Shown here in pieces: positions 22,518 to 22,543 of a DNA stretch of 23,921 nucleotides. Under the pieces are notes generated by a model. That model had not been told where the DNA came from. It worked only from the letters and a program-made list of their open reading frames with translations, and searched no databases. This DNA is from a virus. Location: positions 1-23,921 of the IMG/VR virus record IMGVR_UViG_3300050821_011038. The stretch is one strand, 5' to 3'. Position 1 is the stretch's first letter, and the number at the start of each line of letters is the position of its first letter. The position numbers and the translations under genes are program-made.

Positions 22518-22543
22518 CCGGGATTACTAATTAGTAATCCCGG
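22518..22543. repeat. Oriented intergenic element, copy G: perfect 26-bp palindrome
   Basis: Arms CCGGGATTACTAA and TTAGTAATCCCGG are exact complements with no spacer. It lies between the stop of the 69-residue gene and the leader of the 87-residue gene. It is the most symmetric copy and the best guide to the recognition sequence. Confidence 0.92.

Follow-up and report, generated by a model that had tools for sequence, protein, structure and literature searches.

The stretch of DNA analysed here, referred to throughout as the window, is a virus record of 23,921 bases from an uncultured soil phage. Its genes encode two fusion proteins, uracil-DNA-glycosylase/DNA polymerase A and ParB_N/methyltransferase, along with a Sak4-like AAA protein, a PD-(D/E)XK nuclease, a Dda-like helicase and an endolysin. 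The first of these genes, which specifies uracil-DNA-glycosylase, 3'-5' exonuclease and family A DNA polymerase (8390-10795, minus strand) and is called polA below, contains one of the sites discussed in this work. Judged by the polymerase, the closest named relatives are MW202489 (44%) and Microcystis phage Mel-JY34 (35%), and IMG/VR holds 19 contigs with a polymerase 70-78% identical. The named phage collection contains no near-identical DNA, and neither Rfam nor tRNA searches gave a match in the window. A polA search of genome_contigs returned no relative, so that neither a host nor a prophage is assigned.

Some other genes of the window deserve a brief mention. Two paralogues (20832-21431 and 23142-23867, both minus strand) and a small protein (16744-16977, minus strand) have in common the C-terminal peptide (N/D)(T/S)(D/N)xLLxEL, which, to judge from its sequence, is perhaps a docking tail for a shared partner. 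A fragment at 2-310 (plus strand) resembles, below the cut-off, the phosphoribosylglycinamide synthetase C domain and has a 268-aa homologue in the related record G018 (10675-11481, minus strand); on this resemblance a purine-synthesis gene in a phage is possible. The gene at 18738-19196 (minus strand) encodes a DUF4406 / nucleoside 2-deoxyribosyltransferase-like protein, and the one at 19214-19378 (minus strand) an HTH_3 protein of the XRE/Cro type, also found twice in G015 and in none of 6 other records searched, G018 and G003 included.

A palindrome within a genome-wide array of two-fold sites

The original prediction described a perfect palindrome of 26 bp at 22518-22543, and a direct sequence search of the window finds CCGGGATTACTAATTAGTAATCCCGG at exactly this place with 0 mismatches over the 26 bp. 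When up to 3 mismatches are allowed, the same sequence occurs three times in the window (17180, 20451 and 22518), versus 0 times in 100 dinucleotide-preserving shuffles. The two near-palindromes reported earlier are real, but they lie at 17180-17205 and 20451-20476, 2-3 nt away from the positions given for them (17177 and 20449), and two further near-symmetric copies, at 10210 (within polA) and at 13069, had been overlooked. Altogether, a search for repeats and half-arms brings the window to 8 copies of the element, at 569, 4937, 7038, 10210, 13069, 17180, 20451 and 22518.

The element exceeds 26 bp, as information reaches about 23 bp on either side of the dyad axis and then ends, the profile of 73 oriented sites being flat beyond that distance. 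In its full length of 46 bp, the site with the exact inner 26 bp occupies 22508-22553 and is intergenic, upstream of the minus-strand ORF 22236-22499. The sites at 20441-20486 and 13059-13104 stand upstream of other minus-strand ORFs (19910-20365 and 12476-12934, respectively), the one at 17170-17215 separates the minus-strand ORFs 17217-18533 and 16967-17155, and the one at 10200-10245 falls inside polA, roughly 573 nt from the gene start, where relatives keep it as well. Of the remaining dyad sites, that at 7028-7073 marks the convergent junction between late (plus strand) and replication (minus strand) genes, while those at 4927-4972 and 559-604, each composed of one type I and one type II half, are located upstream of plus-strand ORFs (at 4984/4993 and 620-1138, respectively).

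Specifically, each half of the two-fold site reads GTTWTYYA, then CCGSG, then ATTAMT toward the centre. In a second class of half-site, YRYRM stands in place of CCGSG with the outer and inner boxes kept; this class is more frequent in the late module (12/25) than in the replication module (5/29; Fisher p = 0.02). The three plus-strand copies (569, 4937 and 7038) had been thought to keep the left arm only. Instead, their right arm retains the inner TAAT and the outer A-rich box and is altered solely in the middle CCGSG box, which is replaced. More generally, each copy in the window combines one strong arm with a second half, strong or weaker; accordingly, these copies give no support to the suggestion that one arm is enough.

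A symmetric half-site profile, seeded from matches to CCGSGATTA-N8-TAATCSCGG and then refined, retrieves 226 copies (152 distinct) from 41 of 42 contigs (715 kb), part of this set having been picked for carrying the motif, and 0 from shuffled sequence of equal size. The 19 contigs picked by polA alone all carry sites (19/19). Copy number is 8 in the window, 14 in each of the related records G018, G003 and G015, and about 14 per 45-kb relative. The palindrome is therefore one member of a genome-wide array of about 14 two-fold sites of 46 bp. As the profile search and the comparison of arms establish, these are dispersed inverted repeats whose half-sites are conserved separately.

The perfect copy had been presented as the symmetric form of the element. 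This special status is not sustained. Perfect symmetry across the inner 26 bp occurs in just 2 of the 152 distinct copies, versus about 0.3 expected (a figure obtained by multiplying the expected values by hand), which is somewhat above expectation and not striking. Among 81 non-redundant copies, arm-to-arm matching is at or below the independent expectation at nearly all positions and exceeds it only slightly at the others (by 0.03 at positions -2 and -19, and by 0.01 at -23), and on average the arms pair at 13.6 of 24 positions. In 6 other contigs that possess a homologue of the neighbouring gene, the equivalent of the 22518 site is found upstream of it, 39-62 nt from the aligned gene start in five and 231 nt in one, with both arms recognisable and 10 of 13 pairs mirrored. 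The relatives, in other words, have lost the exact mirror, but the left arm and the right arm both survive. The exact symmetry of the 22518 copy is incidental and probably not meaningful.

The sites are distributed in a characteristic way. A simple in-house script, used in place of a standard gene finder, assigns 88% of the sequence to coding regions, yet 199 of the 226 copies are mostly non-coding. The 152 distinct copies comprise 92 at same-strand junctions, 15 at convergent junctions, 1 at a divergent junction, 12 in called ORFs and 2 at contig ends, with 30 unclassed in gene-call gaps. In 67 of 122 distances, the centre of the site is placed 20-29 nt past a stop codon (median 25 nt). The stronger arm is the upstream one in 10 and the downstream one in 19 of the 73 oriented sites, among which there is no orientation rule. 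Moreover, spacing is regular: its coefficient of variation is 0.26-0.64, versus 0.77-0.91 for random placement, and all 11 contigs considered are evener than the random mean. Even spacing attains p < 0.05 in 6 of the 11 when compared with uniform placement and in 7 of the 11 when compared with random gene junctions, contig-wise p values that are not independent, because several contigs are close relatives. G018 and G003 each have a longest gap below expectation (p about 0.004), and G015 does not clearly do so (p 0.16).

Selection within polA and concerted change of the motif

The copy inside polA offers a measure of constraint on the DNA itself. Over the codons of the site, synonymous identity among 11 non-redundant polymerases is 0.755, versus a gene mean of 0.463 (sd 0.084), and when the whole gene is scanned, the 12 best of 785 windows of the scan all overlap the site. 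Such a synonymous peak implies that the sequence is kept as DNA, beyond what the protein requires; the polA copy is thus under selection as DNA. A site occurs at +572 to +593 of the gene in the window and in G018, G003, G015, G060, G059, G043, MW202489, G045, G049 and G048, and is absent from this interval in G044 and G051.

The element is not spelled in the same way in all these genomes. MW202489 has 8 copies of a similarly built dyad of different sequence, one of them within polA. When the relatives were searched for dyads with no consensus supplied, scattered dyads emerged in G043, G044, G045, G048, G049, G051, G057, G059, G060 and MW202489. The families score 307-504, versus 200-207 in shuffled genomes and 232-263 in four outgroup phages (Mel-JY34, Kuura, PaP2 and VS-ABTNL-3). 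G057 belongs in or near the class of the window, and G059 goes with G060. Common to most classes are an A/T box near -20, a middle box rich in G/C that varies widely, and a TTA-type core; G051, with the core ATAA, departs from this common build. In total, at least 8 motifs exist among the related genomes. Two groups of candidate families stand outside this count. The families of G054 and G056 were dropped as low-complexity repeats of AGC type; in G054, consecutive AGC-repeat ORFs (37700-38650; L170 17700-18650), each starting with MTNLLKIK, would encode Ala/Val/Glu-rich peptides. Those of G062, G052, G053, G046 and G055 score 233-270, barely above the outgroups (232-263), and are not counted as established; G052 and G046 also have a dyad at the polA place.

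A second position can be followed across genomes: all 12 records tested that have a clear motif family carry a site upstream of a gene for a small HTH protein, at 75-391 nt from the aligned gene start. When each site was scored with the motifs of all genomes after being left out of its own, the motif of its own genome was the best in 9 of 12 polA sites and in 11 of 11 HTH-gene sites, in a test where the sites of each genome had themselves been chosen with the motif of that genome. G018 stood for the soil class, and one low-scoring site in each of G043, G044, G045 and G049 had been dropped by eye, here and in the motif distances used below. As for the three exceptions in polA, the sites of the window and of G015 score slightly higher with the motif of G060, and that of MW202489 prefers the motif of G045. 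The motif therefore changes in concert across each genome, and it is the pattern expected if a single protein reads all the sites. The same places, differently spelled in the relatives, point, as far as sequence comparison goes, to one phage protein that would read them all.

Candidate binding proteins and competing explanations

The original prediction of a two-fold site recognised by a dimer-like protein agrees with the separate conservation of the half-sites and with the selection of the polA copy as DNA. The reading that we prefer, with a probability of about 45%, is that the sites are dispersed operators or roadblocks of a phage-encoded dimeric DNA-binding protein, similar to stoperators but symmetric. 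Each site would be bound by one such protein, as a dimer or a higher form. Less surely, the protein, bound at junctions and at the ends of operons, might be a dispersed operator, or a roadblock to host RNA polymerase from both directions, and the site in the divergent region might allow it to repress its own gene. The even spacing of the sites and the conserved copy in the middle of polA speak against this reading, as neither is a requirement of a promoter-linked operator, and so does the lack of an orientation rule among the 73 oriented sites. In addition, lysogeny is the usual setting for dispersed operators. Searches that found no tyrosine integrase in 16 records and no serine recombinase in 10, some of them perhaps incomplete, give no sign of lysogeny, and thus the usual lysogeny repressor is not indicated.

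The first candidate binder would be the small-terminase-like HTH protein (112 aa in G018), the gene of which is found at the divergent region, after the site. This gene is absent from the window contig. It is single copy in the MW202489 clade and duplicated in tandem in the soil clade, as L037 illustrates with its adjacent small-terminase-like HTH genes at 9918-10508 and 10508-10846 (minus strand). The mean distance over the HTH stretch is 0.18 within the CCGSG class and 0.49 to G060, the largest jump among the proteins compared. Once relatedness is taken into account, the distance between HTH proteins does not follow the distance between motifs (partial r about 0, 12 genomes). The predicted structure has a mean pLDDT of 70.9. 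Foldseek finds for it no match in the PDB at E <= 0.001 and one match among viral models (E 3.2e-06), and VIA-align gives a best Z of 6.6, with the phage protein phBC6A51 at 6.4, small-terminase entries at 4.5 and 4.2 and many unrelated HTH rows. The model is, accordingly, that of an HTH fold and no more.

It is possible, if rather unlikely, that the evenly spaced dyads, about 8-14 in number, form a private code by which the phage marks its own DNA, with a single reader that would be either the small-terminase-like HTH protein or the ParB-type methyltransferase. If true, the code would serve to package, protect or regulate only the phage's own genome and, in phages of a lineage with no detected lysogeny genes, would be rewritten in concert at all sites, polA included; its divergence would resemble that between incompatibility or immunity groups.

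Two serious rival proposals centre on one or the other of these proteins. The first, which we regard as unlikely, concerns packaging or self-marking: the HTH protein or its duplicate would bind the sites, giving a recognition point every ~3 kb and many packaging starts. The family of this protein gives weak matches to PHROG small-terminase models (7 of 19 members, best E 0.0029), its gene adjoins the terminase/portal module in G018 and MW202489, and both the site upstream of this gene in the 12 records and the even spacing of the sites would suit such a role. The ends of the records, which differ and fall within one gene of the relatives, likewise suggest circular maps in G018 and G060. Known pac recognition, however, involves one main site, and here the sites are many. 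The motif distance does not track the HTH protein, and small terminases carry their HTHs in a ring and not as a classical dimer (PMC4737164).

The second proposal, more doubtful still, is that the ParB-type N-terminal part of the methyltransferase (11012-12382, minus strand; Pfam ParB_N and N6_N4_Mtase) loads on the dyads and spreads, so that the whole genome would be methylated or organised. The middle region of this candidate binder is HTH-like in sequence, and its motifs GERRxRA and ENLHRxDL we take to be of ParB type. Among the whole proteins tested in 12 genomes, it shows the best correlation with motif distance (partial r 0.53, permutation p 0.003), and evenly placed sites would favour spreading. 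Yet the N-terminal part of polA, although no candidate, tracks the motif almost equally well (0.51; Dda reaches 0.41), and the correlation test is therefore confounded by descent. Furthermore, Mel-JY34 and VS-ABTNL-3 possess the methyltransferase and no site family was found in them, a search for ParA-type ATPases (PF13614) in 8 possibly incomplete records gave no match, and a parS site is far shorter than 46 bp. Further proteins that might bind the site are p199 and p241, the predicted structure of p199 being of low confidence (mean pLDDT 61.7).

Three other explanations fare worse. Directional promoters of a phage polymerase or sigma-type factor would account for the position of most window copies, shortly upstream of a gene, but they are improbable given the sites at convergent junctions and inside polA, the two-fold symmetry, and the absence, outside the dyad, of fixed-spacing hexamers or any other oriented signal among the 73 oriented sites. 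Sigma-70-like matches in 12000-23921 number 11, versus 10.0 in shuffles; the family search for a T7-type RNA polymerase in 8 records found no match, with the controls equally silent, and is uninformative. Folding of a single strand, as intrinsic terminators, RNA processing hairpins or cruciforms, would agree with inverted repeats positioned so soon after stop codons, but it is very improbable: arms that match no better than expected and show no compensatory changes disfavour a hairpin or cruciform and favour two half-sites in duplex DNA, and a T tract of the terminator kind directly trails 0 of the 8 window sites. Mobile or selfish REP-like palindromes spreading through the genome, which the many similar intergenic copies might suggest, are hardly credible either, since the sites keep the same neighbourhoods in relatives, the polA site persists across motif classes, the motifs change together, and copies within a genome are not near-identical as recent ones would be.

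Comparison with known systems

The array shares features with each of the systems to which it can be compared and has the full definition of none. In the related genomes one of the dyads is near a gene that weak profile matches liken to small terminases, as a pac site might be, but here there are about 14 sites per genome, each a clear dyad. In common with parABS systems, a ParB-type protein is present, although its ParB_N domain is fused to a methyltransferase. The conserved inverted repeats of phiC31 are symmetric repressor sites dispersed in the genome, and the c1 operators of P1 are dispersed operators of one repressor; both differ from the array in their shorter sites, temperate phages and known repressors.

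The stoperators of Cluster A mycobacteriophages such as L5 and Bxb1 exist in many copies, mostly off promoters, and related phages have different motifs, which drift along with the repressor (PMC6550527). They resemble the present sites in their many dispersed, mainly intergenic copies and in a motif that differs between related phages. They differ in being asymmetric and mostly of one orientation, and they come from temperate phages with a known repressor, whereas the sites described here are two-fold, 46 bp long and unoriented, and the records searched, some perhaps incomplete, gave no integrase or repressor; among the 73 oriented sites, the dyads have no asymmetric, oriented form of the stoperator kind. 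T1-like phages (T1, Stevie and TLS), which are lytic, contain about 16-21 dispersed, mostly intergenic repeats of 21-22 bp (PMC4319613, PMC11447400), and the authors of the TLS study list the function of the repeats as an open question (PMC11447400). The likeness consists in dispersed, mostly intergenic copies, and the difference in repeats that are asymmetric and oriented with transcription, in contrast to the two-fold and unoriented dyads of the array.

The literature search, with most subscription journals outside its scope, turned up no paper title dealing with dyads of this sort in comparable phages. With respect to T1-like arrays, what is new is the symmetry of the sites, the copy fixed inside a coding gene and the existence of at least 8 motif versions in relatives. 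These versions represent a natural mutagenesis experiment, which supplies testable binding partners with predicted specificities that would not cross-react.
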